Virus record (IMG/VR): IMGVR_UViG_3300013131_001394
Location: 1 to 55,206 of that record
DNA length: 55,206 bases
Direction: 5' to 3' (one strand)
DNA from: a virus
Shown here: in pieces, positions 8,349-49,751 of the stretch
How the letters are laid out: each line of letters begins with the position of its first letter
Numbering within the stretch: position 1 is the first letter of the stretch
Translations under genes and position numbers: made by a program
The notes under the pieces: model-generated
The model's input: only the letters and a program-made list of their open reading frames with translations
The model's database searches: none
What the model was told of the DNA's origin: nothing

Positions 8349-10385
8349 ATGAAACTCAAAACACTTGCAACTTGTATAGCATTGGCCTATGGTTCCCTTC
8401 ATGCACAAGTACAAACTGGAGCATGGCTAACTACTGAATATGATAGAGGTAGAACTTTAAGTTCTATTAATGCTGCAACGGCATATTCCAGAGGATTTAC
8501 CGGTAAAGGTAGCACTATTGCTATTATTGATTCAGGCATTGATTTAAAATCACCAGAATTTCAAAATAGAATTAAGGCTGTATTTGATTTTACCAGTTCC
8601 GGATCTGCTAACGATACATTAGGTCATGGCACCCATGTTGCTGGTATTGCTGCTGCTGCAAAAAATAATATAGGAACTCATGGCGTAGCCTTTAATGCAG
8701 ACTTGCTAATTGCAAAGGTTACCACAAGCGGATTAGTTACAATGGCTACAGCAAACAAAGCTGTCGCTTGGGCTAATAGTTATAATGCAGATGTAGCTAA
8801 TCTAAGTTTAGGCTTTAGCCTTAAGCAATCTACAATTGCAGCTCAGTTAGTAAGCCCAGGTGTTTACAAAACAAATGTAACTAACACAGGAAAATATCTA
8901 GGTGGACTAGACGTTAATAGTTGGAAAACTGCTACTAACGGTGAAATGGTATTAGTTGTTGCCGCAGGTAATGATTCTACACCATGGTCAAGTTCGTTGA
9001 GTCAACTTGCAACTGCTGTTGATGCGAATGGTAACCTAATGTTGGGTGGTAGAGTAATTGTTGCAGGAAACTGGAACAGTCAAGGTGTAAGAAAAACTAC
9101 TACGGTTAATGGTAGACCTGTTTTTACTACTGCATATCAAACAGGTCCTAATAATAATGGTGCTGCCCAACTATGTATGGTAATGGTAGGCACAGTGTGT
9201 CAAGACAAATTTAAGGTTAGTGATTTTTACCTACTCGCACCTGGAACTGGTATAACAAGCACTTATCCTACTACTATTAACAAAAACGGTATGTTGACGT
9301 TAACAGGCACTAGCCAGGCTGCTCCAGCTATATCAGGTGCTGCTGCTATCATTAGAGAAATGTGGCCACAAATGACTGGGTCTAATGTTGTTAAGTTATT
9401 ATTAGTTACAGCAAATAAAAACATAGAAGGTTATAATGTTGTGGCACATGGTCAAGGACTTTTAGATCTTGATAGAGCAACCAGACCGGTAGGTAGTCTA
9501 GGTATTCCTACAACTGGAAGATTGTCAGGGCCACGTAGTCAATCTGTCGATCCTATATTGGTTACAGGTGGTTCCGCTAGCACAGGTGGACTGGGTAGTA
9601 TCGTTGTTTTAGATGACTTTGATAGAGATTTTGGGGTTAAAGGTAAAACATTCACAGCGCACAAGATTAGTAAGGAATTCAACCCTAAACAAGCATTTAT
9701 GCCATATGAATCAAAAAACAACTACAGTCTTTTCAATAACTATAATCAAAGATTACATGCAGAAGCAGCGGATATTTCTTTGGCAGTTTACCAAGACACA
9801 AATTCTGCTTTACAGGTGCCTGGTATGATTGAGATGTCTTATAAGGTAAAAGACTTTAAGTTTACTACAGCACATTTTACTGAACAGGCAACATGGCTTA
9901 ATAACAGCCTGCTAGGTATGAATAGAGAAAGCAATACATTAGTATTCGGCCTAGCCTATGAAAAAGATGTAGGTTCAAATACAAAAACATTCATTAGTGC
10001 CATGCATGGAACCACTAGTATTAAATCGTATAGCGATAAAGTTTCAGGGTTGAATACTGCTTACAGTTATAGTTGGAACGCAGGGCTTGAGCACAGTTTA
10101 AATAAAACAAACTCAATAGGCTTTATGGCATATCAGCCAGTGACTGTTTATAACGCACAGGCCAATGTTAATATGCCTGTAGGACTAGATCAAAACTTTA
10201 ATGTTATTCAAGGTACTAGAGCGAATCTAGCGGCAGATGTTAAAGAAACAAGGCTAGGGCTTTATTATAAACTTAGCGAAAAGTACACACAAGCAAGTGC
10301 ATTTATTGAAACAAGGCAAAATTACAGAGGACAAGATGGCATTAGAGACCACGCAGCAGGACTACAATTTACCCGTCAATTTTGA
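8349..10385 (+). CDS. Secreted subtilisin-like (S8) protease with probable C-terminal beta-barrel (autotransporter-like)
   Basis: 678 residues. The N-terminus is a Sec signal peptide (Lys2, Lys4, hydrophobic core, likely cut after SLHA, residue 19). The subtilase domain has the full triad: Asp61 in AIIDSGID, His93 in GHGTHVAG and Ser322 in GTSQAAP; an AAGND oxyanion segment is also present. From about residue 450 the sequence changes to alternating hydrophobic/polar strands with many Tyr, Phe and Ser. It ends in AAGLQFTRQF, with the terminal Phe expected of an outer-membrane barrel. This is the architecture of subtilase autotransporters such as SphB1. TAGGAG precedes the ATG. Such a protein is unusual in a phage. 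Surface display on the infected cell is inferred; host origin of the gene is likely but untested. Confidence 0.88.
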   Translation: MKLKTLATCIALAYGSLHAQVQTGAWLTTEYDRGRTLSSINAATAYSRGFTGKGSTIAIIDSGIDLKSPEFQNRIKAVFDFTSSGSANDTLGHGTHVAGIAAAAKNNIGTHGVAFNADLLIAKVTTSGLVTMATANKAVAWANSYNADVANLSLGFSLKQSTIAAQLVSPGVYKTNVTNTGKYLGGLDVNSWKTATNGEMVLVVAAGNDSTPWSSSLSQLATAVDANGNLMLGGRVIVAGNWNSQGVRKTTTVNGRPVFTTAYQTGPNNNGAAQLCMVMVGTVCQDKFKVSDFYLLAPGTGITSTYPTTINKNGMLTLTGTSQAAPAISGAAAIIREMWPQMTGSNVVKLLLVTANKNIEGYNVVAHGQGLLDLDRATRPVGSLGIPTTGRLSGPRSQSVDPILVTGGSASTGGLGSIVVLDDFDRDFGVKGKTFTAHKISKEFNPKQAFMPYESKNNYSLFNNYNQRLHAEAADISLAVYQDTNSALQVPGMIEMSYKVKDFKFTTAHFTEQATWLNNSLLGMNRESNTLVFGLAYEKDVGSNTKTFISAMHGTTSIKSYSDKVSGLNTAYSYSWNAGLEHSLNKTNSIGFMAYQPVTVYNAQANVNMPVGLDQNFNVIQGTRANLAADVKETRLGLYYKLSEKYTQASAFIETRQNYRGQDGIRDHAAGLQFTRQF

Positions 10386-11734: not shown

Positions 11735-12618
11735 ATTGCCTGATCTCCTTCATTGCTACAGACTATCATACCGCATTTATGGGGAGTATTAGGCGGATGC
11801 CATCCATCATGCCATATATTTCCTAATGATCTATTGTTACAAGTAGCACCAGATACCCAACCTTGATGTCCTATGTACAAGGTTTCAATTCCCATATTGC
11901 ACATCTTACCTGTATAACTAGGATTGCTATTCAACATATCTTGATATCTACCATGCCATGTTGTTTCTTCAAAATATTCTTTTTCAGACACTAGAGTTTT
12001 TTCTCTAGGCGGAGGACTATTTTTTAACCAAGGCTTAGGTTCTTCCATTAAAGTTAATTGTTCATTGGTATATGAAACAAACAACCCAGCACTTGTATCA
12101 GCATTTATGTATAATGCCTGCTTATTAACCCATATACCGTGACGTTCTTCAAAATCGCTTATTCGTTTTATATCTTGATCAAACCTAGAAGGATGTACAG
12201 GTGCATTTAGGTATATAGGCTTGTCATTTTTAACAAATAACTGAACTATATAATCCATTAGAGATTCATTTTGCCAGTAATGATAGGTTAAATGTATGCT
12301 ATCAACATTAGGTTCGATAGCCCACCAGTCCATCCATAATTTACCACCGTTAGTATGCAAAGTTAATTTGTTTTTATCTGCCTTACATGATTTTAAGATG
12401 GTAACAATATCATTTAAATCTAAAGGTTCACCGCCATCAATTGTCCATTCTATAGTTCTACCTAGGTCTAAATAATTGTTTACTATCAAATCGGCTATTC
12501 TAATATATTCTTTAGTTTCAGGAGGTTCACCACCGCCTCTAAACTTTGTAGGACAATAATCACATTGATAGGAACAATAATCATTCAAGGCCCAGGTTAT
12601 TCTAGTTATATTGTTCAT
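11719..12618 (-). CDS. Radical SAM enzyme with C-terminal Cys cluster (SPASM/twitch-like)
   Basis: 299 residues. The N-terminus has the radical SAM cluster motif Cys15-x3-Cys19-x2-Cys22, then an IDGGEPLDL segment equivalent to the GGEP SAM-binding motif and an HTNGG strand. The C-terminal third has further cysteines (KMCNMGIETLYIG, then GATCNNRSLGNIW, then HKCGMIVCS) in the pattern of a SPASM/twitch auxiliary Fe-S cluster. Such enzymes often modify peptides or small molecules; no peptide substrate gene is evident next to it. It is the only sizeable minus-strand gene in this plus-strand region and is divergent from queE. Confidence 0.85.
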   Translation of the reverse strand: MNNITRITWALNDYCSYQCDYCPTKFRGGGEPPETKEYIRIADLIVNNYLDLGRTIEWTIDGGEPLDLNDIVTILKSCKADKNKLTLHTNGGKLWMDWWAIEPNVDSIHLTYHYWQNESLMDYIVQLFVKNDKPIYLNAPVHPSRFDQDIKRISDFEERHGIWVNKQALYINADTSAGLFVSYTNEQLTLMEEPKPWLKNSPPPREKTLVSEKEYFEETTWHGRYQDMLNSNPSYTGKMCNMGIETLYIGHQGWVSGATCNNRSLGNIWHDGWHPPNTPHKCGMIVCSNEGDQAITKFD

Positions 12619-12624
12619 ATTGTG

Positions 12625-12652
12625 TTGACAAACCTAAATAATAATGTATAAT
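12625..12652 (+). promoter_or_regulatory. Consensus sigma-70 promoter for queE
   Basis: TTGACA (12625-12630), 16-bp spacer, TATAAT (12647-12652), both hexamers perfect. Predicted start near 12659, leaving a 14-nt leader with GAGGT before the queE ATG. Confidence 0.87.
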
Positions 12653-12672
12653 TACTTATCACGAGGTCATTT

Positions 12673-13521
12673 ATGAGTAAACTTAAAGTATCAGAATTGT
12701 TTTACAGTGTGCAGGGCGAAGGTCGCTATATGGGCGTTCCCAGCATCTTCCTTCGCGTGTTCGGTTGTAATTTTACCTGCGATGGTTTTGGAATGCCTAG
12801 AGGAGAAAAAACTAATGAACGAAACATTATTGCAGATCGTATTGGAGAGTTTAAGCAGTATAAAGATTTACCACTTGTTCATTCCGGTTGCGATTCTTAC
12901 GCTAGTTGGGATCCTAGGTTCAAAGACTTTTCACCAGTATTGGAAACAGACTCAATTGCGAAAACAATTAGTGAACTTCTTCCAAAGAAAGAGTGGGACA
13001 GGGAACACCTAGTTATTACAGGCGGTGAACCTTTGTTAGGTTGGCAACGCAGTTATCCAGATCTACTGGAACACGAAAAAATGAAGGGTTTGAAAGAAAT
13101 CACTTTCGAAACCAACGGCACTCAGAAATTGAGTAAAGAATTCAAACATTATTTAGGTGAGTGGACTGCTACTAATTGGGATAGAGAGATTACCTTTAGT
13201 GTTAGTGCTAAATTACCTAGTTCAGGTGAAGCATGGGAAGAGGCTATTCAACCCGACGTAGTATGCGAATATGAACAAGTCGGTTGGACATATCTTAAAC
13301 TAGTTGTAGCCACAGAGCAGGATATAGAAGATGCACTACGGGCTATAGAAGAATATAGATCAGCAGGCTTTAAAGGTGAAGTATACTTGATGCCGGTAGG
13401 TGGTGTAGAGAGTGTTTATAGTTTAAATAATAAGAATGTAGCATTAGCCTGTATGAAGCATGGGCTAAGATATAGTGATAGGCTTCAGGTGCCGCTCTTT
13501 AAGAACGCTTGGAATACATAA
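12673..13521 (+). CDS. queE: QueE-like 7-carboxy-7-deazaguanine synthase (radical SAM)
   Basis: 282 residues. QueE converts 6-carboxytetrahydropterin to 7-carboxy-7-deazaguanine, the first deazapurine of the queuosine/archaeosine and DNA 7-deazaguanine pathways. The start SELFYSVQGEGRYMGVPSIF is characteristic, and VITGGEPLLGW is the SAM-binding GGEP motif. The cluster loop is unusual: Cys32-x3-Cys36 is followed by 36 residues (including PRGEKTNE) before Cys73 in GCDSYASW, whereas canonical QueE has CxxxCxxC with CDTxYAW directly after. I recognise this form from T4-like cyanophages. It would supply precursor for the DpdA homologue at 2278. QueC, QueD proper and FolE are not seen in the window. 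Confidence 0.88.
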   Translation: MSKLKVSELFYSVQGEGRYMGVPSIFLRVFGCNFTCDGFGMPRGEKTNERNIIADRIGEFKQYKDLPLVHSGCDSYASWDPRFKDFSPVLETDSIAKTISELLPKKEWDREHLVITGGEPLLGWQRSYPDLLEHEKMKGLKEITFETNGTQKLSKEFKHYLGEWTATNWDREITFSVSAKLPSSGEAWEEAIQPDVVCEYEQVGWTYLKLVVATEQDIEDALRAIEEYRSAGFKGEVYLMPVGGVESVYSLNNKNVALACMKHGLRYSDRLQVPLFKNAWNT

Positions 13522-13528
13522 TAAAGTT

Positions 13529-13571
13529 CCCCATTTATTTTAAAAACCATAAATATTTGAAATGAATGGGG
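13529..13571 (+). promoter_or_regulatory. Late promoter inside a 16-bp RBS-occluding hairpin
   Basis: A 16-bp stem (13529-13544 with 13556-13571, two G-T pairs) closes an 11-nt loop whose last eight bases are CATAAATA (13548-13555), a T4-type late promoter octamer. The right arm ends in GGGG (13568-13571), the only Shine-Dalgarno-like site, 7 nt before the ATG at 13579. By T4 spacing late transcription would start near 13561, within the right arm, so late mRNA lacks the left arm and the site is free. Read-through mRNA from queE would fold and hide it. Confidence 0.8.
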
Positions 13572-13578
13572 CACTAAT

Positions 13579-14337
13579 ATGACAAATCCTATAAACAAAT
13601 ATTCCGAAGAAGTATTCAAAAATAAAGTAAAAGAAAAAATATCTTCTATTTTAGATATTACAGAATATAAAGGTGTTGACTACAAACTTAAAGTGCATTG
13701 TATCCACGGTATAAATGAAAGAAGAGGTTGGAGTGTTTTAAATGGTAAACATTGCTGTCGCAAGGGCTATTACGAAAGCGGCAATATGTGGAAATCAAAT
13801 ACAAATACCATTGAAGATGCTAAACAAAGAACTTTAAAACATCGTCCTAATACTGATGTATCAAATGTATATTTTAAATGGGACGGCAAATATAAAAGAT
13901 TATACGGTATTAAATGCACTATACATAATATTGAATATTCAAGTTTATTAGGAAGTAAAGTGGGCCAGTGCCCTGAATGCTTTAAAGAAGATAATAGAGC
14001 AAAACTCAGGACAGCGGCACCTAAAGCATGGGCAAGTCAATCAACAGGAAGTTTTGTAAGCAAAAAAGAAACTAAATGGTTAGATGAATTAAACATTAAG
14101 GATAGACAAGTGTGGCTTGAGGATGTAAAATACAAAGTAGATGGATACGACTCTGAAACCAACACTGTATATCTTTATCACGGAAAATTCTGGCACGGAT
14201 GTCCTAAAACATTTGATCCAGAAATGATACATCCGATTATAAAAATTCCTATGAAAGATTTATACGAAAAAACAATGTATTACGAAAATAAATTAAAACA
14301 TGCAGGTTATAACTTAGTAGTAAAGTGGGGCACCTAA
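13579..14337 (+). CDS. Zinc-ribbon/Vsr-like (PD-(D/E)XK-type) endonuclease, probably homing
   Basis: 252 residues. Two N-terminal Cys/His clusters (HCIHG ... GKHCC; and KCTIHN ... GQCPEC) look like zinc ribbons for DNA recognition. The C-terminal domain has VDGYDSETNTVYLYHGKFWH and a YEKTMYYENKLKHAGYNLVV helix and strand, as in Vsr-like nucleases of phage homing endonucleases. The position usually filled by the Glu of YEFHG is Leu here (YLYHG), so the exact metal-binding set is uncertain. It is free-standing, with no intron seen. Expression from a late promoter within an RBS-sequestering hairpin matches several T4 homing endonuclease genes. Confidence 0.75.
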   Translation: MTNPINKYSEEVFKNKVKEKISSILDITEYKGVDYKLKVHCIHGINERRGWSVLNGKHCCRKGYYESGNMWKSNTNTIEDAKQRTLKHRPNTDVSNVYFKWDGKYKRLYGIKCTIHNIEYSSLLGSKVGQCPECFKEDNRAKLRTAAPKAWASQSTGSFVSKKETKWLDELNIKDRQVWLEDVKYKVDGYDSETNTVYLYHGKFWHGCPKTFDPEMIHPIIKIPMKDLYEKTMYYENKLKHAGYNLVVKWGT

Positions 14338-14589
14338 ATGCGGCCTTTGCCGGCTCCTGAAACCTTAAACATATATCTGCTAGTAAATCAGAATGGTATG
14401 AAGTTTAGTCCAATTCAAGGTTCGACTAGCGGAAACCAGTATATAGGACTCGGATTTTATCTATCTAGGCAAGAAGCAGAGCATCAAAGAACATTAGAAT
14501 ATCTCAAATACAAAGATACAGGTGATTATAATAGGTTCCATATCTTTGAATTAGAAATTCCTAACCCGGCATATATAAATGAAAAGTAA
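14338..14589 (+). CDS. Small conserved hypothetical protein
   Basis: 83 residues starting immediately after the preceding stop (TAA-ATG). It reads like a compact alpha/beta domain (NIYLLVNQNG, then GLGFYLSRQEAEHQRTLEYL, then FHIFELEIPNP). No family recognised. It overlaps the 2OG oxygenase gene by 11 nt, so the pair is likely translated together. Confidence 0.65.
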   Translation: MRPLPAPETLNIYLLVNQNGMKFSPIQGSTSGNQYIGLGFYLSRQEAEHQRTLEYLKYKDTGDYNRFHIFELEIPNPAYINEK

Positions 14590-15196
14590 TTCTTCGGTAA
14601 TAGGATTATTTCCCATTCCTTTAGGCATATATAATATAAACAGATTATTTTATACTGAAGAGAATTCTTTTAAAGAACAGTGTTTTAAAACTAGAAGATT
14701 TATAGGAACGAATAGTATTAGTAATAATACATATATTCTAAATTCTAAAGAAATGATAGGAATAAAAACATTTATAGAAACTAGTATAAATCAATTTTTA
14801 GAAGAAAGCGATCCATTTCCTGACCACACATCGTTGTATATAACACAATCATGGTTTACATTTACCGAAAAAGACCAGCACCATCATATTCATAACCACC
14901 CCAATAGCTATATTAGCGGAGTTCTTTATTTTGATGTTGATTATCCAAAAGATAAAATATTTTTTAAAAATCCAAGAATACGCGATATGATGATAGAAAA
15001 AAATAATTACACACCGTTTAACAGTGAGGAATGGTCAATACCTATTCGTGCAGGGAGTTTACTATTGTTTCCGTCTTATATAGAACACTTTGTAAAAAAC
15101 TATCCCGGCGATAAACCACGGATAAGTTTAGCCTTTAACACATTTGTAAAAGGACAGTTAGGATCAGAACATACACTAACAAAAGTAAAATTATAA
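14579..15196 (+). CDS. Putative 2OG-Fe(II) oxygenase
   Basis: 205 residues. The segment HHIHNHPNSYISGVLYF matches the iron-binding HxH/N-P-N-S-x-x-S-G motif of the TIGR02466-type 2-oxoglutarate/Fe(II) oxygenases common in marine T4-like phages. GSLLLFPSYIEHFV supplies the distal His, and PRISLAFN the Arg expected to bind 2-oxoglutarate. The start lies inside the preceding gene. Substrate unknown (nucleobase, protein or metabolite hydroxylation are all possible). Confidence 0.8.
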   Translation: MKSNSSVIGLFPIPLGIYNINRLFYTEENSFKEQCFKTRRFIGTNSISNNTYILNSKEMIGIKTFIETSINQFLEESDPFPDHTSLYITQSWFTFTEKDQHHHIHNHPNSYISGVLYFDVDYPKDKIFFKNPRIRDMMIEKNNYTPFNSEEWSIPIRAGSLLLFPSYIEHFVKNYPGDKPRISLAFNTFVKGQLGSEHTLTKVKL

Positions 15197-17281: not shown

Positions 17282-17317
17282 ACTAAATATATACGCACTT
17301 ATCGGAGAGGCGTATAT
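17282..17317 (+). promoter_or_regulatory. Late-promoter-like element with start-codon-occluding hairpin
   Basis: ACTAAATA (17282-17289, 6 of 8 to TATAAATA) overlaps the left arm of a perfect 8-bp inverted repeat: ATATACGC (17289-17296) with GCGTATAT (17310-17317). The right arm contains the first two bases of the ATG at 17316, and the loop holds GGAGAG. By T4 spacing the start falls near 17295, so late mRNA keeps only two bases of the left arm and the start codon is exposed. In read-through mRNA the ATG is paired. Confidence 0.6.
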
Positions 17318-17615
17318 GAGCAGACCCAAGCCAAAAGTATTACTAGAAGTTACAAATAAAAAGAATTATAAATCTGAGCAGGTCTTGGAGGCTGATGCTA
17401 TTTGGGCAGTATTTTATAAAGATAAGCCTATTAACCTAAAAACAAATAGTCTACTCGCTGATCAAATAGGTCCAAAATATAAAAAAGTAAGTTTTTCTAA
17501 TAGCGGACATGCTTTTAATCTAGCAGAAAAACTAAACAAATTATTTGGCACTTCGGACTTTAGCGTTTATAAATTAACCACCGGAGAAAAAATTAGAAAT
17601 GAAGATCAAGCATGA
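17316..17615 (+). CDS. Small hypothetical protein, probably late-expressed
   Basis: 99 residues, basic, mixed alpha/beta (KPKVLLEVTNKKNYKSEQVL, then AIWAVFYKDKPINL). No family recognised. GGAGAGG lies just upstream of the ATG within the predicted hairpin. It overlaps the next gene by 17 nt. Confidence 0.65.
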   Translation: MSRPKPKVLLEVTNKKNYKSEQVLEADAIWAVFYKDKPINLKTNSLLADQIGPKYKKVSFSNSGHAFNLAEKLNKLFGTSDFSVYKLTTGEKIRNEDQA

Positions 17616-19220: not shown

Positions 19221-20468
19221 ATGGCTGTTATGAAATCAGAAAAAACTAAAAAGGTAGAAGCACGTAATTTTACCGAAGCAGAAAAAAACAAAATTGTAGA
19301 GAAATTGATTACTGCTCGTGTTGGGTTGTTACTGCGTCATCCTTTCTTTGGAAACTTAGCAACTCGTCTTAAACTTGTAGATTCTACTCACTGGTGTCCT
19401 ACTCTGGCTACAGACGGACGCTGTTTCTACTACAATAACGATTTTGTAAACCGACTCACTCCAAAACAGGCAGAGTTCGGATTTGCACACGAAGTCCTAC
19501 ATAATGTTTTTGATCATATGGGGCGCCGTGATGGGCGTGATCCTATACTGAGTAATATTGCGGCAGACTATGCCGTTAACCAAATCCTAAAAGATGAGCG
19601 CATCGGTGAAGTGCCTGACTGGATCAAAATTTTCCAGGATAACAAGTATCGCGGAATGAGTTATGAAGAAATCTATGCAGACATTTATGAAAAATCCCAA
19701 AAAATCAACATTTGCGGGTTAGGCGAGTTGTTAGATGAGCATCTAGATGGAGACGGCGATGGAGACGGCGATGGAGACGGCGATGGCAATAACGGTAAAG
19801 GTCGTCCTAAACTTACTCCGGAAGAACGTAAGGCTATCCGTGATGAGATCAAAGAGGCTATGGTAGCCGCTGCCCAGAGTGCCGGTGCAGGCAAGGTTCC
19901 CGCAGGTGTAGCACGCCTTATTAAGGATTTCACAGAGCCTAAAATGGACTGGCGTCAACTACTGCGTATGAATATCCAAAGCATTATCAAAAGCAATTAT
20001 AGTTTCGCCCGCCCAAATCGTAAAAGCCAACACTGTGGCGCAGTCCTTCCAGGTATGTTAAATGAAGAAACCATTGACGTAGCCGTAGGTATTGACCTAA
20101 GTGGTAGTATTAGTGACGACATGGCCAAAGACTTCATTAGTGAAGTTAAAGGTATAATGGAAGAATACAAAGACTTCAAACTTGACTTATGGTGTTTTGA
20201 TACCGAAGTGTATAACTACGCCGCATTTTCAATGGATAATGCAGATGAAATCATGTCCTACCAAGTTAAAGGCGGAGGAGGTACTGACTTTGAGGCCAAT
20301 TGGACCTTTATGAAAGAGCAAGGAATTGAACCAAAACGCTTTATTATGTTTACAGATGGATATCCTTGTGGCAGTTGGGGGGACGAAGATTACTGCGAAA
20401 CCCTGTTTGTTATTCACGGCAATGAATCCATAATTGCTCCGTTCGGACAGACTGCCTACTATAAATAA
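19221..20468 (+). CDS. VWA-domain protein with metallopeptidase-like N-terminus (DUF2201 type)
   Basis: 415 residues. The N-terminal domain has an HExxH zinc motif (His90-Glu91-x2-His94, with His99 nearby) as in the putative metallopeptidase domain found with VWA domains. A DG-rich linker (about residues 176-189) is encoded by 12-bp tandem repeats. The C-terminal VWA domain has a MIDAS motif (GIDLSGSIS, Asp292) and FTDGYP at the later metal-binding loop. It is the expected partner of the upstream MoxR-like ATPase. The two are separated by a terminator and a new promoter rather than co-transcribed. Substrate unknown. Confidence 0.87.
   Translation: MAVMKSEKTKKVEARNFTEAEKNKIVEKLITARVGLLLRHPFFGNLATRLKLVDSTHWCPTLATDGRCFYYNNDFVNRLTPKQAEFGFAHEVLHNVFDHMGRRDGRDPILSNIAADYAVNQILKDERIGEVPDWIKIFQDNKYRGMSYEEIYADIYEKSQKINICGLGELLDEHLDGDGDGDGDGDGDGNNGKGRPKLTPEERKAIRDEIKEAMVAAAQSAGAGKVPAGVARLIKDFTEPKMDWRQLLRMNIQSIIKSNYSFARPNRKSQHCGAVLPGMLNEETIDVAVGIDLSGSISDDMAKDFISEVKGIMEEYKDFKLDLWCFDTEVYNYAAFSMDNADEIMSYQVKGGGGTDFEANWTFMKEQGIEPKRFIMFTDGYPCGSWGDEDYCETLFVIHGNESIIAPFGQTAYYK
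19746..19781 (+). repeat. 12-bp tandem repeat in the VWA gene
   Basis: Three exact copies of GATGGAGACGGC plus a partial fourth, in frame, encoding an Asp-Gly repeat in the linker between the protease-like and VWA domains. Copy-number change would alter linker length in steps of four residues. The acidic DG run could bind calcium. Confidence 0.9.
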
Positions 20469-20477
20469 AGTAGGTAG
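20452..20477 (+). promoter_or_regulatory. Perfect late promoter octamer in a hairpin loop
   Basis: TATAAATA (20460-20467), the exact T4 late promoter consensus, lies on the loop of a 9-bp stem (20452-20460 with 20469-20477, one G-T pair, loop 20461-20468). The right arm AGTAGGTAG contains the Shine-Dalgarno-like site, three bases before the ATG at 20481. Late transcription would start near 20473, giving an 8-nt leader without the stem. Read-through mRNA from the VWA gene would hide the site. The left arm and octamer overlap the VWA stop codon. Confidence 0.7.
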
Positions 20478-20480
20478 ATT

Positions 20481-20777
20481 ATGCCGTTAAGTCGAGGAAC
20501 AGTTAATCCATTAGGCGTTCTGGGACTAAGGAGATTATCCTTTATCCCAGAGCATTTTGCTACTTTAACTATTGAAAGTTACCGTGGATACAAAGAAATA
20601 GAAAATTGGATAAACTATAACCTTAATAGCAGATATGCAATAAAAAGGACATTAGCAGTAAACGATCAAAATAAACTTACAGAAATGTTAGAGATAGGTA
20701 TAGAAGATCCAGCAGAACTAACAATGCTAAGTTTAGGATGCCCACATTTACATAACAAAAGAGAGGATTTATTTTAA
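20481..20777 (+). CDS. Conserved hypothetical protein, probably late-expressed
   Basis: 98 residues (basic N-terminus PLSRGTVNPLGVLGLRRL, then SYRGYKEIENWINYNLNSRY). No domain recognised; the style fits small conserved proteins of T4-like marine phages. Preceded by the late promoter/hairpin element. The stop overlaps the next ATG by one base (TAATG). Confidence 0.65.
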   Translation: MPLSRGTVNPLGVLGLRRLSFIPEHFATLTIESYRGYKEIENWINYNLNSRYAIKRTLAVNDQNKLTEMLEIGIEDPAELTMLSLGCPHLHNKREDLF

Positions 20778-26486: not shown

Positions 26487-29400
26487 TTATAGTTCCTCTA
26501 GCGGCTCATCGTCTTGATCTGTTAGGGCAAATCCTCCCTCATTAGTTAGGGCAACATCACCTCCATAGTAATACTTATCTGGTAATTCTGCAGGTCTTGC
26601 CTGTAAGAATCTAGCAGGTACAGTGGTACTGGTCATTAATGAATAGGTAGATGTCGAGTTAACTGTATCATTCCATACATCTATAGCATCAAATTCTCTT
26701 TTTACAATTACTAATTTAATGCTTTGTTGTACACCTTCTTGTAAATTTAAATTGAGATACTGGTTCTGTATAGTAAATTCTGGTGGTACATAATTAATAC
26801 CACTATACTCATACCCGTTAAATGCATCATACTTGTCTGAATTAGTATAAATCCAGACTTGATTAGTTGATGTAATTACATAGGCTGTGCCTAACACTGT
26901 GGTAGTAGGAAGATATGATACTTCGGCTAACCATCTATTATTCCTTGCTTCTTGTGAATTTTTAATATTATTAAGGATTTCGGTATCTGTATCAATTAGG
27001 TTATTATAGTTACCTACCCAATAATCTAACCCTCCTTGATCGGGATATCTATTTAAATATCTCAGATAATAATTTGTAACTGTATTTGCATATGATGCAG
27101 GATCTGGTACTGTGGGTGATAACGGTGCACCATAATCGGGCGCATTGGGTATAGGCAAGAAATAAGGTGTGTCGTAGGTGAATTCTATATCCTGTTTGAA
27201 AGTGGCATTTTTATTTAAAATACGTCCACCATAAACTACTGTAACTTGATCCTCTAACTTTATAGGATTAGGTATAGAAGTCGTTGTACTAATTTCGTTT
27301 AGTGTAATACCATCATTAGTTACAGTGCTATATGATACAGGATTACCTAAATAATCAGTCGCTAGCGTAGATGTAGTAAATGACAATGTACTAATATAAT
27401 AAGTTGTGCTATTAGCCAGTGTATAGTGTGTCTGTTTTAATATTCTTTCAGAATACGGTACTGTTTGTTGCGATCCTTGATCAATAACTTTGGTATTCTC
27501 ATGCGAATAAAAACTAGGAGCAGTTCCTAAAGTTGCTCTCCTTAACTGACTTAACACATTAGATCCTACTTTGAAAAACTCAATACGTTCACCGTCTACA
27601 AGAATTACGCCAGGAAGATTCTTTTCAATATCCGGACTGGTCAACACATCTGCATTGTCAACATGTATTTCTGTATCATATACACTTAGTGGTCTGGTTA
27701 GATATGTAGAATTTTCCTTACTTAATCTCTTAAAATGTGTTCTATGGAAAATATCATGGAATATTCTATAACCTAATATAGTTGATGCTAATTTTTCGCT
27801 ACTAAATGTTATAATTGTAATCTCATTAGTTTCATTATGATAGAATTCATCTGAAATTTCTACTGTTACAGAATCATCTAATATCTCATAATCATAATGA
27901 TTTACTAAAGGTATACCGTCAACTATTACCCATACATAATTGCTATCAAGGGCAGGTCTACTTATCACATATCTTCTAGACGGATTACCACGGAATCGCT
28001 CTGTACGCATCAGCATATCGTCGTGATTATTGTAGGTTATAACTTTCAATTCATAAGGGTATGTAAACGATCCTGGATTTATGATTGTCAATTGACTACC
28101 AACAATATCATAATCGTATGTATATGAACCTTCCTGCGCTACAGCAGCAATTGCTATCACATCATCCTTAACTAATGGAACTAAAATATTATATGTATTA
28201 GCACCTGCTGCACTGTAATCAAAACCTCTCCTTAATTCTTTTCCATTTAGGTACACTCTAACCTGACTTAATGATCCGTAATTTACACCAGTTGTATTAA
28301 GTGTGTAAGCGGTAACTAAAGAATTTATAACTTTAAAATAACTTATATCAGGAGGTCTTAGGTATCTACGGGTACCGTTTTGGTTAACTTCAACAATTGT
28401 CTGTGCTACAACAGGTTCTATTATTCCCGGAGGATTCGCCAATGTCCAAGATGTTTCCGAAACATTTGTAACTTCTATAATTTCTTCATTTATTTCATTA
28501 AAATATCTTTGTGCTGTACCGAAAAACCATGCTGTAACGGTAGAAGTAGTAGTATCTACCAAATTATATACATTAACAGCAGCCCTGTTACTATTTTGAT
28601 TGGCCACAGTAAGCATGTATCCGTAATCAGTTGTAGTGGTAACTTCACTTATCGCAATGCCATTAACAGTAACATATGCACTCTTAACTGTACCAAATTG
28701 CGCAAGACTTACTAATTGAACTGTGCTTGTGCTACCTGTAAAACTTGTGGTATCTATAACACCTGCTTCTTTAAAGTCTCTACCGCCTCCTACACTAACA
28801 ATACTCACTCCTAATATACCTTTTATGGTTTGAGGAGGAACAATTATTTCATTCAATGTCCAATTAATGTTAAACTCGGTACTGGTTGTAAAATTAGTTG
28901 TAGAGTTATAGGTCATTAACCTGTTTTCAAAAGTTACCACTAGGCTGGAACTATTAGGAGGAGTAATACTTAATTGTCTGGTACTAGTTGATCCGGGGTA
29001 GATAACATAATAACTATTAACTACCACAGGCGCACCTTCAGGATGCTTGGTATAAACATTGATACCTACGCTTTGATTAATTTCACCTGGAACTAATTCT
29101 TCTGGAGCATAAGTGTGATTGGCACTGATAAATGACTCTCCATCTATAGTAATATCTTCAGGATTTATTCCTAGGGCTGCTACTCTTGTTCCAGTCGTCC
29201 AGCCGCCACCTTCTATAGCACTGTCTAAAATAGTAGTCTGTGTATCATATGACCAAAACTCTATACTAGCGATGCTAGTAGTATTTGTATATGTTCCTTC
29301 TACGAAAATAGTAGATATTGTAGCAGTTAACGGTAATAGGGTAGCAGTTGTAAATGTCACAGTACGAGCACTAGTGTTAACAGATTGAACTCGCGGATTA

Positions 29401-32400
29401 ATATTAAAAAATTGATTATCTAATTGCTGTCTGCTGGCACTAACTATGTTAACAAGTTGCCCAGGTTTTATACCCGTAGTGGTAGTTAATGTAAGCGTCG
29501 TGGTTCCTGAACTAGCAGTATTTGCGACTTCAATGTTTGTGTAAAATGCTATATCGTCGGCCCAGTAACTAATACCATAAGCACTAGTAGTTTCATTTCC
29601 TATGCGCTGGTCTGTTAGCCAGTTAATACCCCACTTAGTTGTGTAATTAAAAGGAAGACCTTCTACCACAGTCTTAGGAAACTCTATGCCATCCATTAAT
29701 TGTGACAATTCGTTTCCTGGCATACCGTCTGTAGGGCTATAGTATTCTAAAATACGATCAACGGCATTTAATAACGCAACATTCTTTTTATAATTTACCG
29801 TTAAAACTTGATTAGTCTTAGGCACATAGTTAATGAATATTATTTTATTATATGTCTTTTGATAATCAGTATTCGCACCTATATAATCTTTATAATAAGA
29901 AACAGTGTAGTCTGAACTTAGTACCAGTTGCCCGTCTAAAGTGATTTGAATTTGTGACTTATCAGGAACTGCAATCCATGATAATATGAATTCAGTATCT
30001 GCACCGTTACATAAAAATCTATCCTCAGTATCAATATCAAGAACTTCAGGTGCTCTAGAAGTTCTATCAAATTTCATACCTAAGGTAATTTCTCTTACGG
30101 TATCATTCGTCAATACTGCATAGCCTGTGGCTACCTTTGTAGGAGAACCTCCTCCTGATATTACAACTAACGGAGGCGTTGTATATCCAGATCCGTAGTT
30201 TGTAACTTCAAATCCTACTACAGATCCTGATCTAATAAATGCCTTAGCGGTAGCACCAGATCCTAAATCACCAGTCTGTGTAACTAGCGTTACTGTAGGT
30301 GTTTCTGTGTATCCTGTCCCCGGATCGGCTACTCTAATTTCTCCTACATAATATGTATAATTGTCAAGCCAAGATTTCCATGGGTACGTCAACATCCATG
30401 TATTAGTAGCAGTGAACTCAGAGGCAGACTGACTAGCCGGTATTGTTAAAGTATTAAATCCGTTTTTAGCATCATCATAATAAGGTGGAAAATCAAAATC
30501 TGTAATATAAGTGGCACTAGGTTCTACTTGATTATACCTTGTTGTAAAGTTTCTTATTTGAGTATGATACGGTTTAACTTCCTTGATATATGATTCATAA
30601 TATTCACTGTTTTGCAATTTATAGGTAGATCTTTGATCTAACGATCCTGCATTATTTGTTACATTAATAAAAGATGTTTTAAACGCCCAGTCCAGACGTT
30701 TTTGCTCTGTAAGAGCATATTTAACTGCCTGGAAAAATAATAAATTGTAATGTACTTTTAGATCATTAACAAAAAGATCTTCTTTTACTGCTTGTAGAAT
30801 ATTGTATGTTTCTTGATAAATTTCCGCAGACTCATCATTCCAGACTGTATCTTTAATTTTTATTGTACCGTTTTCACTATATACAATATTGTATCCTAGA
30901 CTAAATGTTCCTAAAATATTATCACTTATTTTTTCAAGAATTACATAGTTACCTTGCCCGTTATCATTTATCTTGACATACTGTCCTTGAGATATATCCT
31001 CTATCGTTTTTAACTGATATATTTCATCAAGAGTATATGCATAATCCACAAACTTGTTGTATGTCGAATCCAACCAATCAATATAATCCCAGTAAAGAGT
31101 TGTGTTATAAGATTGAGTTTCAGACAGTTCCCAGCCTAGAGTATACCCCTTATACTCGTACCTTGACCATTTACCATCTTGCGTACTATCTACTTCTACA
31201 ACTGCTGCAAAAGGTCTTACCGATAAACTAGGAGCACTAGCAAACCCAGACCCTGCATTTAAAATAATCACATCAATAACTTTTCCGTTAGCATCAATAA
31301 CAGTTTTTAATTCTGCACCGTTGTTATTATTCACTGTGATTAAGGGCGCATTAATATACCCATCTCCTGGTTCAATTATTGTTACACCAGTAATTTTACC
31401 GTTAGAAACAGAACAACTAATCTGTGCCTGTACTTTAGAATTAATATCAATAAAGTCTAACCCTTCTAGATCTTCTAGAATTATATCATATAATCCATCA
31501 GAGACATGAGGTATAGGCTCTTTAGATAGTAAATTTCGTAGACTATATTGTTCTGTTATACGCTGTGAGGATAAGACAGAGTTGATATATTCAACAACGT
31601 TGCGTAGGGCAATAAACCTATCTGCAAACAATGTTTGTCTAGGTCTAATACTAATACCATAACGTTCTCTAGCAGTAAGTGCAGGATCAGGAACCGGATT
31701 GCCTAAACTATCCCTTCCAAGCAAACTATCAAACAACTTTTTCTCTAACATCGCATTAGGCATCTGATTGGCAGATCCTTCTTGCATAAGTAACCACTCA
31801 GTATGTCGAGGTATGGGGTTGTTAATTATATCAGTTGCTATATTTAGGCTTATTCTATCATCTATTAACAGTGTACCTACGTTGGCAAGCGACAATGCAT
31901 TTTGATCCATTATTTGTCCGAACCTTAGTCCGTAAGCCGCAGGGTTTTCTATTATACTTGCCAATTGAACTGCTGTAGTTCTTCTGTTCTTTTTATTAGG
32001 TAGTATTATTCGATTCTTTACCCAGAAATAATAGACATTTGTAAATCCGCCTGTGGTAGGATTATAAACCTGCTTAACACTAAGCACATCATTCAAAGGA
32101 TGTTTAGGCTGTCCGCTTATCCCGTCCGCAAGTCCTTGAGACGTATCTGCTATAACTGCCCACTCACTAGGTAATAATTCGCTACCTACCCATTCGTAAA
32201 TGTCAATTGTGGAACCGGGAAATAATCTACCCCAATTATTTTTCCTATAACTTAGTTCGCCTTGCTCATACCATACGTATTTTGCATTGCTAGTATCCCA
32301 CCATATTTCACCGACATGATCATCTAACCAATTTGTTTCAGCATCAGTAACGGTTAATTCATTGCCTATAGAATAAACAGCAGGGTCTATATTAGACTTA

Positions 32401-35400
32401 TATTTTATATCTTCTTCGGCAACACCGGGTATTTTACCTTTTAAAGGGTCTATAATATCAAGATGTTCTAAAACTTCATCATTAAATGTATCATACAATG
32501 TTAATTTTTGTATGGTATTAATATCAACTAGTTGATCTTTACTACGTAAAATGTTCCAACTTTTATCTGCTACATTTTTCTTTCTGTATTGATAAAATGC
32601 ACTGTCTGGTAAGATACCGTCTATTACAGTTTTATATGCAGGTGCACCTACATATATAGAATCATCATTTACTGCTAGGCTAAATCCGTAATTAGTTCCT
32701 GTATTAGGATCTAATAAACTCATTTCATCTGCTAACTTAAACGTGTTCAAATACCTATTATAGACGTATGCACTTCCACTAAACTTAACAGTATCAAAAA
32801 ATGTTGTCGAGCCTGAATCAAATGTTGTACTATCGGTTAAATCACTATTAACATCTTTTACATATTTTGTTCCGTATATACTTAATGAATTTAACAAAAG
32901 TGATTCATATCTATCAAAAGTTAATTGTAAGTTTCTATTTGTACCTTGTGCTGTGACAACAAGTTCAGTATTATCTGAATTAATTCCTATTGCCTTACCG
33001 AATTTCATACCGGGACTACCGACAGGGTTTTGTATTATCGAATCTAATTCAAAATGTACAGCATCAGTTAATGTATTTTTATAAACTGCTACCTTACCGA
33101 ATGATTGATCATAGTTTCTAGAATCGGGTGCTCCTACAAAAATATACTGCCCATCTTTACTAACTGCAACTGACTCTCCAAACTTAGCATTACGTTCAAA
33201 CGGACTAGTTAAAGTTTGCAGATATGTGATATCGGTAGTGGTATACACACTAACAAAACCTGTACCTGTGTAATATCCAGGAGCCGCAACAGCAGTAACT
33301 TCGGCCAGATTAGATCCTTGTATAACTTGACCCCATCGTGATCCTACATTTACATCAAAGGGCGCTGTGATCTGTTTAACATAAGTCACATTTATCTGAG
33401 TAGAGGCTGTGGTAAAATTATAAACATAAACAGATCCTGTACCTAGTGTAGATGTAAAGGGAGCGCCTATCATTAAAACCTGTGTAGATCCGGTAGACAA
33501 ATTACTTGTATAAATGCTAGAACCAAATCTTTCATAACTTGCAGGTGTAGGACTTATTAGAGCACCTTGACTAACTTCTGTACCTGTGCCTTCAAACGTA
33601 CTAATTTTTACCAAACCTTCTTCTAACCTTGCGCTGTAAGAACCTGTATTCCCGGCAAAACGTAAACCACCGGATGAATATGACTCTCTAGTAAAACTTA
33701 CTAAAGGAGCACCTGCAAAAACGGTGCCGAATGAAGAAGTACCAAGTTGATTTGTGTGATAGGCTAACCCTTGTCCGAAATTAGTGTATCCTCCGGGCTG
33801 ATAATATGTTGTAACAAGATTATTAACCGTCCAACTGGAAATTAATTCAATGTCTGTATCCGATTCATGAAATAAAAATACAGTTCCGGTATTTGTTCCT
33901 GTACCGGAAGCACTTACAACAAAATTTCCTAAATTATCTTTACCGGTTATTTTATAGCCTAATTGTGTAGTAGTGTTAACGCTAACAGTGTTTAGACCTT
34001 GACTATTATAGTTTTTGATCTTTGCTACAACTTGCCAGTTATCTGCTCCGTCATCTATCAACCAATTCTTAGCACCGTATGGTAATTTTAATAAGAAATT
34101 ATCCCTAGGTAACTTATCAAAATTATCAAACTTAGCACTTTGAAACTTGAAAACAAGTCCCTGAGTTTCAGCAGTAAGACCTGAAAAGAAGAATGTAGAA
34201 GTGGTGCTTATTACAAAAGTGTTAATTGTAGGTACCTCTACAACTTGATAAACTCCGTTAACTGTATCACTAAATTGACTAATACTAACAATATCGAACT
34301 TAGAAATGTTATGTGCTTTTGTCGTTTTAAAGATATATCTGTCTGTAGAACCTTCCTGTAAAGTTATGCTACTTAACTTGGAACTACCTAATACATACCT
34401 AAAAACATCCCAGTCATTATTATTTTTATTAGCAATCCAGACATAGTCATCGATTAACAAACTTCTGTTATTGCTAATATCGGTGATAGAATTTGTATTG
34501 TAAGCAGTGTAATCTACATCGTCAAATCTTACGAAACCTGCCGTTTCTAATTTTAATATGTCTGGGTCATTAGTTGTGATAAAAGTGCTCGACGATATAT
34601 AGCCATCATAACTTATTAATAAATCAGTCTGTGTTGTATAATAAATTAGACTTTTATTATCGATTTCAATTTCTTCATTAAATGTTACAATTTGCGGATT
34701 ATCAACAAATTCGCCTTCTTTTAACTTAACCTCGAGTTCTTTATATGTCTCAAACGAACCGAAGTGTCCTATTCTAAATGCCCATTCTTCATTGTAACTA
34801 ATTTCACCTTGTAGATTATGAATAGCAGCCTTGGCTAATTTTTCAATAGCATTACGTGTACCTTTTTCTCTAATAAACCCTTGATAGAATTTGTATTGAG
34901 CAATAGGATTGGTAAAGATATTATTAAGATATGGACGAGGAGTATAACCTACCAGATGCTGAGCCATTCTTTGTTGGGCAGAATCAAAATTGTCAATGTC
35001 TAAACTATAGAAATCTTCAAACTGATTAATCTTATAGTCAAAATTAGGTAATAATTGTGCCACAGGCTTTTCGCCTAACAATACCCATTCAGTAAATGTA
35101 AACTTATCCGAACCTATAATATTATTTTTAGCAGTGTAATATTTTCCGTTAAATCTAACAACATCACTGGCATTGTAATTTGTGAACTTTTGCCAGTCAT
35201 TAATATATGCGGTGTCATAGACGAATCCAGGGCTAAAATAATCACCGTCCCAATCTCTAGTTCTAAATCCTGTCAATCTTACCCTACGCTGTCTATATCC
35301 TGTAGCAGTATCATATATTGTATCATTGAAGATTGTTGTATTATTAAGTACTATAGCATGTTCTTTTTGAATACTGTTTAAGGTAGCAAAGTAAAGACCA

Positions 35401-38400
35401 TCTGCTAGATTCACAGTAGACACTGTGCATAGTCCATCTTCTCTATTAACATTAATGTTATTTTTAGGAATAGGAATCCCATTTGCCTGTAGTAAACTAT
35501 AGTCGTAAAAACTATTGAATATATTATCAACAACTGTATTAGGTAATTTAAACTTAAGTTTATCTGCAAAAGGACTGAGTGTTATTACATTATTGTTCGC
35601 CCAGTTCTGACTTACCCAGTACAAGAATTCTTCGCCTGTAAATGTCCAGTCAATTACACGCAGAAGGTCTGCATTATAATCATCAAATACAAATCCTCTT
35701 GTAGTTAACCATTGGCCGTACCCTATTATTATATCGTAGACCTCTTGAATTTTGTCAAACGTAGATCCATAAGGAATGATTTCTTCTTGCTTATTAAATC
35801 CGTTCCATTTTTGAACAGTAACTCCGCCCTTAATAGGTAAAGAAGGCATGCGTTGATAATAAGCATCTTCAAATTTGTTACCGCTTCTATGACGAGTCTT
35901 AACTCTATAAAAATTATTATCGTACTTTACTATTTGTCCTACTTCATAAAATATTCCGCCTGTAGAGACTGCGGCTGTGGTAATATCTCCTACTGCCGAA
36001 CTACTTGTAGGAGCATTTGAACTGGGTTTCCAGTCGACATACGGTTCACTTATACCTCCAACATTTATAGTAGGTGTATTAATATTTCTTCGAGGCCTAA
36101 ATATTGTAAAATAAGGATCTTTCTTATCATAACCTTTTAGAACAAATAAACCATTTTGTTTTTGTACAATAATACCGCTAATACTGTTAGTGCTTACAGG
36201 ATTACTTACATTTAGGATTAATTCAAAATCCTCAGGAGGAAGTATACTACCGGGACTTGTGCTTGTAGGATCTATCGCATCAATTACTACCTGAACCTTA
36301 TCCTTGCTAATAAAACCGCCAACTTTGTAAAATAAATTAAAATCAGCATAATCTAAATCTGACCTTAATTCTTTTATATAATTACTTGTTCGAGTTAAAC
36401 CTGCTTCTACAACATATACGCCGTATCCGCTCAATAAATTACTAGTTTCAGTGTGAACAAAAATATTTTTCAAACTTAAAAAGTCTAGTGTATCACCGTA
36501 TATTAATTGTCCTGCTAAATTTAAATTAATTCTATAAGGGTCATACATGTAAGAGCAATAGTGAACAGGGCTGCATAATGCCATAACCTTTTGAACTACA
36601 AAAGGCCAGTAACTACTTCTACGCCATGCTGCTTCAGCAGGTCCGATATCACCTACTTGCCAATCTTTACTTTTTTGCCCTAATTTAATATTTTCCAAAA
36701 TAATGTCAGGCTCAATTAAATTACCTTGACTATCAGACGGAACTACATTAAGCAACCCATCTCGTTTATATATTGTATCTACACCCTGTCGAGATCCTTG
36801 TCTAATTCTCCCATCAGCAAGATCTTCCCATAAAGGCAGATTTCCCGAAGTGTAGGGGGCAACTCCGTATTGACCTTCCCACCATGAGGGTTTTTCACTA
36901 AAACCTAACATCTCCCACGGATGACTGTGTGGCCTATCTGTTCCGTAAAGATATCTATATACAGCACGCCATGATCCTGTCAAATGTGTATCAATGCTAC
37001 TGATATAAGAACCAGTGTAGTTCCATGTAAAAGGATTGGCTTCATCGAAAGCACCATTAGTTTCACTGTCTATACCATAAAATCCTGCCCACCTTACAAA
37101 ATCCTTTGTAATAATCCTGTTAATGTCTACTGTATTAAAACTATTTGTTTTAAACGCACCTGGAATAAGTTCATTATAGTCTAAAAGATCCTGTCTGTAG
37201 GTAACTTTAATATTATTGTATACACGTTTTTCAAACTCTAAGATTATGTCATCTCTATAATCATCATAACTTCTTATGATGCTGCCATCATGACATTGTA
37301 TTACATAGACAGGATCTACATAAGTGTCATCAAGGTATAGTTCGGGATTATATTTAGGATATAATCCTAACTTAGTAGGAGTAGGTGGAACATATGATCC
37401 TACAGTAGACGTATATTCAACTGTCTTAAGAATATCACCTATGTTTAATGAAGTTAAAATTTGTATAGATGCATCATTAGTAACAAATTCATAATCTTTG
37501 CCAACAATTAACTGTGTATCATTAAGGTAAACTAATACACTTTTATCGGTAAGTGTATCCAATGTAAATTCATTATTGATAGGAAATTCAATATTAGCAG
37601 GGTTGGTTACAGTCCACTCACGCTCTTTCTTGTCCGGACCATATCCTACCATGTCTGAATAATAATATGAACTTAATAAATCTTTATCTGCATTTAATTC
37701 TTTAAGTATTTGATCAACTGCTTGTGCGGGCGTTAAATCATCAGCCATATCACCCGCTTTACGTAGGAAGGCTAACTTAAATTGATTATATTGATCAGCA
37801 GCCTTATCTAGTGCTGTAATAAGACTATGTTCTTTTTTACCTAAAAACATTAAACTGAAAGCGATAGGATTAAGATTTGATATTAATCTTTTTCCATGTG
37901 TTTCAATACTATCTATATCCCTTAAATTACTTTGTCCGGGAAAACTGCCTACAAATGCAGGACTACTTTCAGTCATGCTCTTTACATGATCACTTAGTTC
38001 AGTAAAGGTAAGTGTGCCGAACTTCTGATTTAAAGGATTGTTTGTCAATGCTAAAGGAGATTCCCAATGTCCCGCTGAACCTAATGAATTATAAGTGTGT
38101 ATTTTAACAAGTACATTAGATCCTGCTGAAATATCATTGTTAAATTGAACAATAACATTTCCGTTGGATTCAGATACACTATAAGTATCAGCCAAAATTT
38201 TAGCATTATTAACAAAAACTTCTATCACATAATCTGATAAAACAGGCTTAAATGATTCAAGTTTAATTATAGCAGTATCAACTTCTAGTGTTTTAAATTC
38301 AAGTATAGGTATGCTATATTCGTTAGCGACCTGCCATGCATTTTTATAAACATCACCATCTTCGTGTGCGTATTTTACAAATGCATTGCTTGTTTTTACA

Positions 38401-40205
38401 GTAGAACCTGTGTTAAGAGTAATTACTTCATTGTTTAAATAATCTTCAAAAGTAAACCCACCTATACCTTGATTAGCATAATTTACAAAAATATTTAGAA
38501 TAGGATCAAGATATGTGCCTACTTCATATCCCAAAATCTTATTACCAGCAAAACTAGTAGATTCAAAACTATTACCGTCATTATCAAATAAATCAAATAA
38601 CGGTGCTTCATTTAGTGAGTTATGATTCTGGCCCTGCGTCCATTCCGATCCGTTAAACCACCAGTTAGTTGATTTATATTTTACACCTTGATTAACAGAA
38701 CAACAGATACCTGCCTGTGCTTCATATACTTCATTTAATTCTAAACGTTTTTTACCGTTTATATAGATAAAGTTAACTTCGTATATCTTATTTCTAACCT
38801 GCTCACCTGTATCAGCAACAAATATAACACGTTGACCTTGTTCTAACCTTACTTGATCTGCAATGTGTCCTATACTTCCTTCTACTAGACTAAATGCATC
38901 TGTTATGTAGTCATCAATCAAATCAACGTTAGGAATACCTTGCGTTCCGAAATTAAACAATGTCAGATCTGCTTTAAATTCAATAATAGGTCTTTTAGCA
39001 CGCTTATCATTAGGATAAACAGGAACTAAGTTATTAGCCTCAGCACTCTTTGTTATTACATCTCTGTGAACCCATCTATTGTATCGTGTCCAAGGATTTA
39101 AATCCCTGCTACCTCTGTTTATTGTAATATATTCTGGATTGACGGGCAGAGCGCTGTAATTGTCGAAAGGGTATACATCAAAAGGACTAGCATCAAAGTT
39201 TTCGTCGTATATTTCACTTAGGTTATCGGTTGTCACAAGACTAGCAACATCTATTAACCGAATTGCATGTCCAACACCTTCAACAAAAAATTCTTTATCT
39301 ATATAGGAAGCAGGTGTTACTGTACCTCCGAACCTAATTTTCATACCGTTCGTAAGTTCTACACCTGTACCAGATGTATATGATTGCTTTCCTACTATTT
39401 CATCATCAACATTAATAATACTATCTTCTGCGATATTTCTTACAGCGATAAGTCCTTTGGCAAGACTAGATGCATCTGCTGCATAATACAATGTGTCAGG
39501 TGTATCATCGTCTATCATCATTGTAACTACACCGCTGCTGATGCCATTATTGTTGATGTTAACATTATACGCATCGCTGCTACCCAGACTAGGTTGTGTT
39601 TTAATAAAAAACTTGTAAACAGAACTTACGTTAAAATTGTATGTATTACCCCTATATAGTATTAGTAGAGGATCTTCTGTTACACCATTAGGTGTGAATA
39701 CAAAACTAGTTTCACTATCATTGTCAGATACTGTAAATGTGCTAGTCGAATTTAGTTGTGTTCCGGTAATTGTTACTGTGTCGGCTCCATTGACTAACCA
39801 GTAATATTCTTGATAATTTACAAACTTGTCAAGATCAATATGCGGATTATATGAAGCAAAATGTGACCTGTATAACTTGTCAAAGTTACTGATATTTCCA
39901 TTATTAAAACTTATTGTATTCGATAAATCATCTATACCGATTACATCATTTACAGCATCTGAATTATTCTTAATAACTAGAGCAGGTTCGAGTTGATAAT
40001 CACGACGTAACTGGCTAGTCTCTGTCAAATAATTGTCAGTATTTTTATAGTTAGGGACTAGTTTTGATCCTATATAACCGTCAATACGCTCTAGGCTAGG
40101 TGGCTGTATGAGTTGATCAATTGTACTTGATAAAAACTTACTGTTTTTTTCCGATCTAATAAATTCAGGTAAAAGATTAACAGATTTAATACTTTTTTCA
40201 GCCAT
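26487..40205 (-). CDS. Giant virion structural protein (4572 residues), probable baseplate/tail protein in the gene 7 position
   Basis: A single uninterrupted frame of 13.7 kb directly after gp6, where T4 has gene 7 (1032 residues). The N-terminus ([20 protein letters not shown]) looks like an assembly domain. Residues about 2150-2530 hold FG-GAP/propeller-like repeats with GAP motifs (VFAGAPL, LMIGAPF, IFVGAPD, IYVGAPA). Residues about 2950-3350 hold four repeats of the type GSGYxxxP ([32 protein letters not shown]). Near residues 4370-4425 lies a DUF4214-like segment ([17 protein letters not shown]). The rest is Thr/Ser/Tyr-rich beta structure. Probably a huge multidomain baseplate-anchored tail component for adhesion. 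Homology to gp7 proper is inferred from position only. Confidence 0.85.
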
Positions 40206-49699: not shown

Positions 49700-49727
49700 T
49701 TGACATTTGATTTTTTCATGTTATACT
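49700..49727 (+). promoter_or_regulatory. Sigma-70 promoter for gp55
   Basis: TTGACA (49700-49705), 16-bp spacer, TATACT (49722-49727). Predicted start near 49734. This lies downstream of an in-frame ATG at 49707, supporting the later start at 49752. Confidence 0.85.
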
Positions 49728-49751
49728 GTAACAAAGGATATAAAAAACATA

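Follow-up and report, generated by a model that had tools for sequence, protein, structure and literature searches.

A hairpin located just upstream of a predicted Vsr-fold endonuclease gene very probably serves as a time switch for translation of that gene and belongs to a mobile cassette inserted at the 3' end of queE. In the window, that is, the whole 55,206-nt stretch of viral DNA that was analysed, early and middle transcripts running through queE would fold a 16-bp stem, in which the GGGG preceding the gene is paired with CCCC and initiation at 13579 would be blocked. A polymerase programmed by gp55 would start about six bases 3' of the octamer CATAAATA, at about 13561. The resulting short late mRNA, devoid of the left arm, would leave GGGG single-stranded and would be translated, so that the endonuclease would be made late. 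The elements of this leader are as follows:

13529-13544, + strand: left arm of the hairpin, CCCCATTTATTTTAAA (pairing and covariation)
13529-13532, + strand: anti-Shine-Dalgarno CCCC, in the left arm
13545-13555, + strand: 11-nt loop between the arms, AACCATAAATA
13548-13555, + strand: candidate late-promoter octamer, CATAAATA (position, and TAAATA core in 41 of 42 homologous leaders)
13556-13571, + strand: right arm of the hairpin, TTTGAAATGAATGGGG (pairing and covariation)
13561, + strand: predicted late transcription start, from T4 spacing (octamer at -13 to -6)
13568-13571, + strand: GGGG, Shine-Dalgarno-like site inside the right arm (opening-cost and leader analyses)
13579-14337, + strand: Vsr-fold endonuclease gene (252 aa), with a Cys/His-rich N-terminal part and a Vsr-like C-terminal domain

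The arms form 16 pairs, two of which are G-U, and the octamer fills exactly the 3' eight bases of the loop, as the first-pass annotation of this DNA had described. GGGG, a mediocre Shine-Dalgarno match but the sole such site in the leader, lies 7 nt 5' of the ATG and is fully paired. The claim that a 16-bp hairpin hides the ribosome binding site was thus confirmed at these coordinates: its minimum free energy of -20.6 kcal/mol (z -4.9) was equalled by none of 200 dinucleotide shuffles, and a second folding set-up gave a z of -6.0, again with 0/200 shuffles. When TAAATA sites across the window and 240 kb of a relative were scored, this one had the strongest enclosing hairpin (z -6.75). The late start had been placed one base inside the right arm and needs correction, since T4 spacing gives 13561, the sixth base of that arm. 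The logic of the switch is unaffected because the entire left arm would be missing from that transcript as well. With 3 occurrences in the window against 6.6 expected, CATAAATA shows no enrichment, and its significance rests on position and conservation. An Rfam search matched no known RNA family, and the exact stem pattern found no match in 85,000 species genomes.

Homologues of the endonuclease were drawn from IMG/VR, giving 42 distinct leaders on viral contigs, the window counted among them. The first-pass annotation had held that homologous loci lacking a conserved stem would speak against its proposal; all 42 leaders keep a stem-loop 5' of the ATG, and 36 of them fold better than all 200 of their shuffles (median z -5.1). 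Where queE is present on the contig, it ends just 5' of the leader. TAAATA was found in 41 leaders, compared with a mean of 8.2 and a maximum of 15 after shuffling, and the sole other strong preference is for A, then C, immediately 5' of it. The Shine-Dalgarno site falls within the right arm, except in L018 and L083, where the arm probably covers the start codon instead and the automatic fold returned a structure that was weak or different. L041 and L043 have the motif so near to the Shine-Dalgarno site that an mRNA starting at T4 spacing would begin within it. Covariation of the stem, proposed earlier as a check, was counted on a 24-sequence alignment and is clear: compensatory double changes occur at 12/16 stem pairs, with 39 double-change cells against 14.3 +- 3.0 in shuffled alignments and 3-14 in slid registers. 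The clearest example of the switch logic is L025, where a change of GGGG to GGAG is matched by a change of CCCC to CTCC. A covariance model built from the leaders retrieved only leaders of this endonuclease family when run on 543 kb, including 240 kb of one relative.

Covariation alone is equally compatible with a DNA palindrome. The inverted repeat could then be mainly a DNA element (operator, endonuclease binding site or insertion feature) whose folding as RNA is incidental, a reading that we consider unlikely. The repeat is indeed nearly palindromic and scores on both strands, it belongs to the inserted cassette, it is cleanly inverted in one phage (L048 compared with L046), and I-TevI represses its own late promoter via an overlapping operator (PMC2988022). 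However, similar endonucleases have leaders whose stems differ widely in their letters yet still pair, the right arm overlies a Shine-Dalgarno site or a start codon throughout the set, and the predicted start always disrupts the stem. Furthermore, non-Watson-Crick transition pairs comprise 37 G-U and 20 A-C, in stems picked without bias to either. This excess argues with moderate force for selection on the sense RNA, its weight being reduced by the relatedness of the sequences.

The inversion itself concerns the entire hairpin, which is exactly inverted in L048 (L048:980-1036) relative to L046 (L046:343-399), two phages about 98% identical. It puts the late octamer on the opposite strand, and may be either a real inversion via the arms or an assembly error.

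The time-switch reading predicts that the ribosome site differs in accessibility between the two mRNAs. The predicted cost of opening the region from the Shine-Dalgarno site to the ATG is 15.6 kcal/mol on the long mRNA and 3.4 kcal/mol on the late mRNA for the endonuclease of the window, in agreement with the earlier claim that read-through mRNA hides GGGG and late mRNA exposes it. Medians over 39 leaders are 13.2 (long) and 2.8 kcal/mol (late), the difference reaching at least 5 kcal/mol in 35/39; the median for the other genes of the window is 3.7. L041 and L043, by the position of their predicted start, and L048, by its inverted loop, depart from this pattern. The analogy previously drawn with T4 lysozyme, soc and I-TevI was examined with the same script. 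The same contrast was obtained for the positive controls T4 e (14.7/4.6, long/late) and I-TevI (12.9/4.9), and a weaker one for T4 soc, also a known case, whose values of only 8.7/6.3 indicate that the energy contrast is no sharp classifier. As in leaders of the T4 type, the ribosome site is paired in a stable stem on transcripts initiated upstream and, by consensus and spacing, the putative late promoter is sited so that its transcript would lose the 5' arm.

The window also encodes the sigma factor that such a promoter would call for:

49707-50675, + strand: gp55-type late sigma factor gene (phrog_12791, E 3e-84)

TAAATA occurs on the same strand 14-60 nt 5' of genes 11 times in the window, against 0.9 expected, and 37 times in a 244-kb relative (G001), against 5.2 expected; the antisense counts are 2 and 10, respectively. 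This enrichment of about 7- to 12-fold concerns genes that include those for the portal, tail tube, baseplate wedge and virion proteins. The gp55 gene and the position of TAAATA before structural genes support the assignment of this motif as a probable late promoter, and together with the enrichment they point to a gp55-type late system that uses TAAATA. The nearest gp55 matches in phage records are those of Pseudomonas jumbo phages, which lends no support to the first-pass description of this virus as a marine phage.

A reading in which the hairpin blocks the ribosome site but TAAATA is merely an AT-rich loop, release being due to an RNA-binding protein, an upstream ribosome or another factor, appears very unlikely. 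The motifs of L041, L043 and L048 are misplaced or inverted, as such a reading would allow. Against it stand the presence of TAAATA in nearly every leader, far above the shuffled mean, its use before structural genes alongside a gp55 gene, and the preference for A, then C, immediately 5' of it; ATAAATA and [AG]CTAAATA both fit the T4 and Aeh1-type late consensus (PMC2988020).

The time switch also requires a long mRNA. A candidate promoter for it precedes queE:

12625-12652, + strand: sigma-70-type promoter TTGACA-16-TATAAT (12/12), 5' of queE (consensus match only)

No terminator was found in 12500-14700 on either strand, and thus none between queE and the endonuclease gene. Given this perfect promoter and the lack of a terminator, read-through mRNA is likely in this phage, and we presume from the consensus match that the promoter at 12625-12652 is the source of the early read-through mRNA. 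Only some relatives have a clear sigma-70 promoter immediately 5' of queE, so that elsewhere the source of read-through is assumed. A CTAAATA late-type motif lies within the spacer of the 12625-12652 promoter, as would be the case for overlapping early and late promoters. Being very stable and situated between two genes, the hairpin might instead terminate the queE message or mark a site where RNase processes its end, but this is extremely improbable. No leader has a U-tract (a T-run after the stem) and the terminator search detected no terminator, so that the terminator version was rejected; moreover, the hairpin lies 7 nt from the start codon and includes the Shine-Dalgarno site.

Pfam and PHROG searches of the endonuclease gave no significant family match. 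Its AlphaFold model (pLDDT 83.8, pTM 0.40) was compared with all PDB chains by Foldseek; the top two, and the only convincing folds, were 1vsr (E 7e-3, probability 1.00) and 1cw0 (0.99). This model-based match supports a Vsr-type fold for the catalytic domain and is consistent with the earlier label of a Vsr-like endonuclease. Residues E164, D188, H201 and H206 are invariant across 11 homologues, and we take them to be possible counterparts of the Vsr catalytic residues. No sequence-profile match to Vsr was found in the PDB, and the C-terminal profile of the endonuclease matched no PDB sequence. Membership of the EDxHD family (I-Bth0305I), presumably also of Vsr-type fold, is unsupported: searches of PDB chains up to E 1 and E 5 gave no sequence match, and I-Bth0305I is not named among the 50 Foldseek matches listed. 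We presume that the protein is a free-standing homing endonuclease. In eight contigs (L058, L059-L061, L063-L065 and L085) the endonuclease gene has a shared frameshift at an A-run about 15 codons into the reading frame. The hairpin and octamer of these contigs are intact, and the frameshift may reflect decay, phase variation or slippage.

The surroundings of the gene are those of a mobile element. Its neighbours are:

12673-13521, + strand: QueE-like radical SAM gene, 5' neighbour of the endonuclease and site of insertion (phrog_2076, E 5e-52)
14338-14589, + strand: downstream gene (83 aa) beginning right after the endonuclease stop; a similar gene lies directly 3' of queE in the empty allele L106

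Occupied and empty alleles exist at this one site. The endonuclease is missing from 78/80 of the nearest queE relatives; in the empty ones the following gene usually starts at the queE stop, and among those listed neither hairpin nor TAAATA was found within 110 nt of queE. Its presence on the queE tree is patchy, with at least 10 changes, and the window, L023 and L024 sit among empty relatives. An insert of 815 bp (L024:2931-3745) distinguishes an occupied allele (L024) from an empty one (L106). In L024 the endonuclease gene closes with 12 nt identical to the end of queE in the empty allele, and the cassette thus seems to carry a replacement queE end. Both genes have nearly the same ending, W-G-T-stop (window 13510-13521 and 14326-14337; L024:2931-3759 vs L106:3041-3055), apparently because insertion hit the last codons of queE and supplied a replacement terminus. 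The matching of the two termini was clear against control 9-mers and was rejected as locus-specific (p 0.08). The pattern of presence and absence suggests that hairpin, promoter and nuclease move as one unit. The hairpin would thus belong to a mobile endonuclease cassette for which homing activity is predicted.

Two further candidates were noted in the window:

17288-17318, + strand: second candidate hairpin, with TAAATA (17284-17289) at its left arm; opening cost 10.9 long, 4.6 late
20452-20477, + strand: third, weaker candidate, CTGCCTACT-ATAAATAA-AGTAGGTAG, hiding AGGT before a 98-aa ORF (20481-20777)

The former pairs the start codon of a 99-aa ORF (17316-17615); in the latter the predicted start would land within the Shine-Dalgarno site. 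Both have starts sequestered in hairpins beside TAAATA, and both ORFs (99 and 98 aa) are of unknown function. In G001, the leader of a GIY-YIG endonuclease (L187:16532-17236) forms a hairpin that hides GGAG, with TATAAATA in its loop (16.1/0.7, long/late). A homologue 40% identical on another contig, L195, has a different stem in the same layout (8.4/6.0); the two loci are L187:16470-17236 and L195:1940-2300. The HNH endonuclease L191 shows the same leader design less clearly. Promoter-in-hairpin leaders may conceivably be a modular late switch in this jumbo T4-like phage group, repeatedly gained by unrelated homing endonucleases (Vsr-fold, GIY-YIG and possibly HNH) and some resident genes, maintained by selection together with the cassette and able to be turned off by arm-mediated inversion of the promoter (L048); we put this forward only tentatively.

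Elsewhere in the window, a single open frame of 4572 codons lies inside the tail gene cluster (26487-40205, minus strand). A 678-aa ORF (8349-10385) has the look of a serine protease of the subtilisin type, signal peptide included, which is unusual for a phage, and an ORF at 54760-55194 matches phrog_447 as well as the homing-endonuclease families phrog_7363 and phrog_314.

The late switch by escape from a hairpin is textbook knowledge for a handful of T4 genes, based on a small number of sequences. By analogy, the mechanism proposed here would be the one already known from T4 lysozyme and I-TevI; new are its association with this nuclease family and phage lineage and how widely it is conserved. 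The switch is backed here by 42 diverged leaders that show compensatory changes, from another lineage and another nuclease family. As it travels with the gene, it lends itself to testing why homing endonucleases must stay off early, and TAAATA inside a stem over the start site provides a simple signature for late-switched genes in uncultured phages.

The C-terminal domain of the phage protein resembles in fold the Vsr endonuclease (1vsr, 1cw0), from which the protein differs by its extra Cys/His-rich N-terminal part and by having no mismatch-repair context. It also recalls I-Bth0305I, a phage homing endonuclease of multi-domain build (PMC3943268) with which it shares no sequence match. In T4 e, the long mRNA is silent and the late mRNA is translated, and GAGG is hidden by a hairpin with the late octamer TATAAATA in its loop region (PMC3014915). 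The present leader likewise has a late-type octamer in the loop of a hairpin hiding the ribosome site, and it shows the same contrast in opening cost. The two differ in phage lineage, in that e is a lysis gene rather than a mobile endonuclease, and in that T4 possesses another late promoter further upstream. Other close parallels are I-TevI, I-TevII, I-TevIII, segB and Aeh1 mobE, homing endonuclease genes within early or middle units, whose ribosome site is held in a hairpin on long transcripts and whose late (or middle) promoter gives a short mRNA that escapes it (PMC2988022). The hairpin and, by prediction, the escape promoter are common to them and to the leader described here, but those nucleases are GIY-YIG or HNH proteins, partly encoded in introns, whereas the present gene encodes a presumably free-standing, probably Vsr-fold nuclease at the 3' end of queE.
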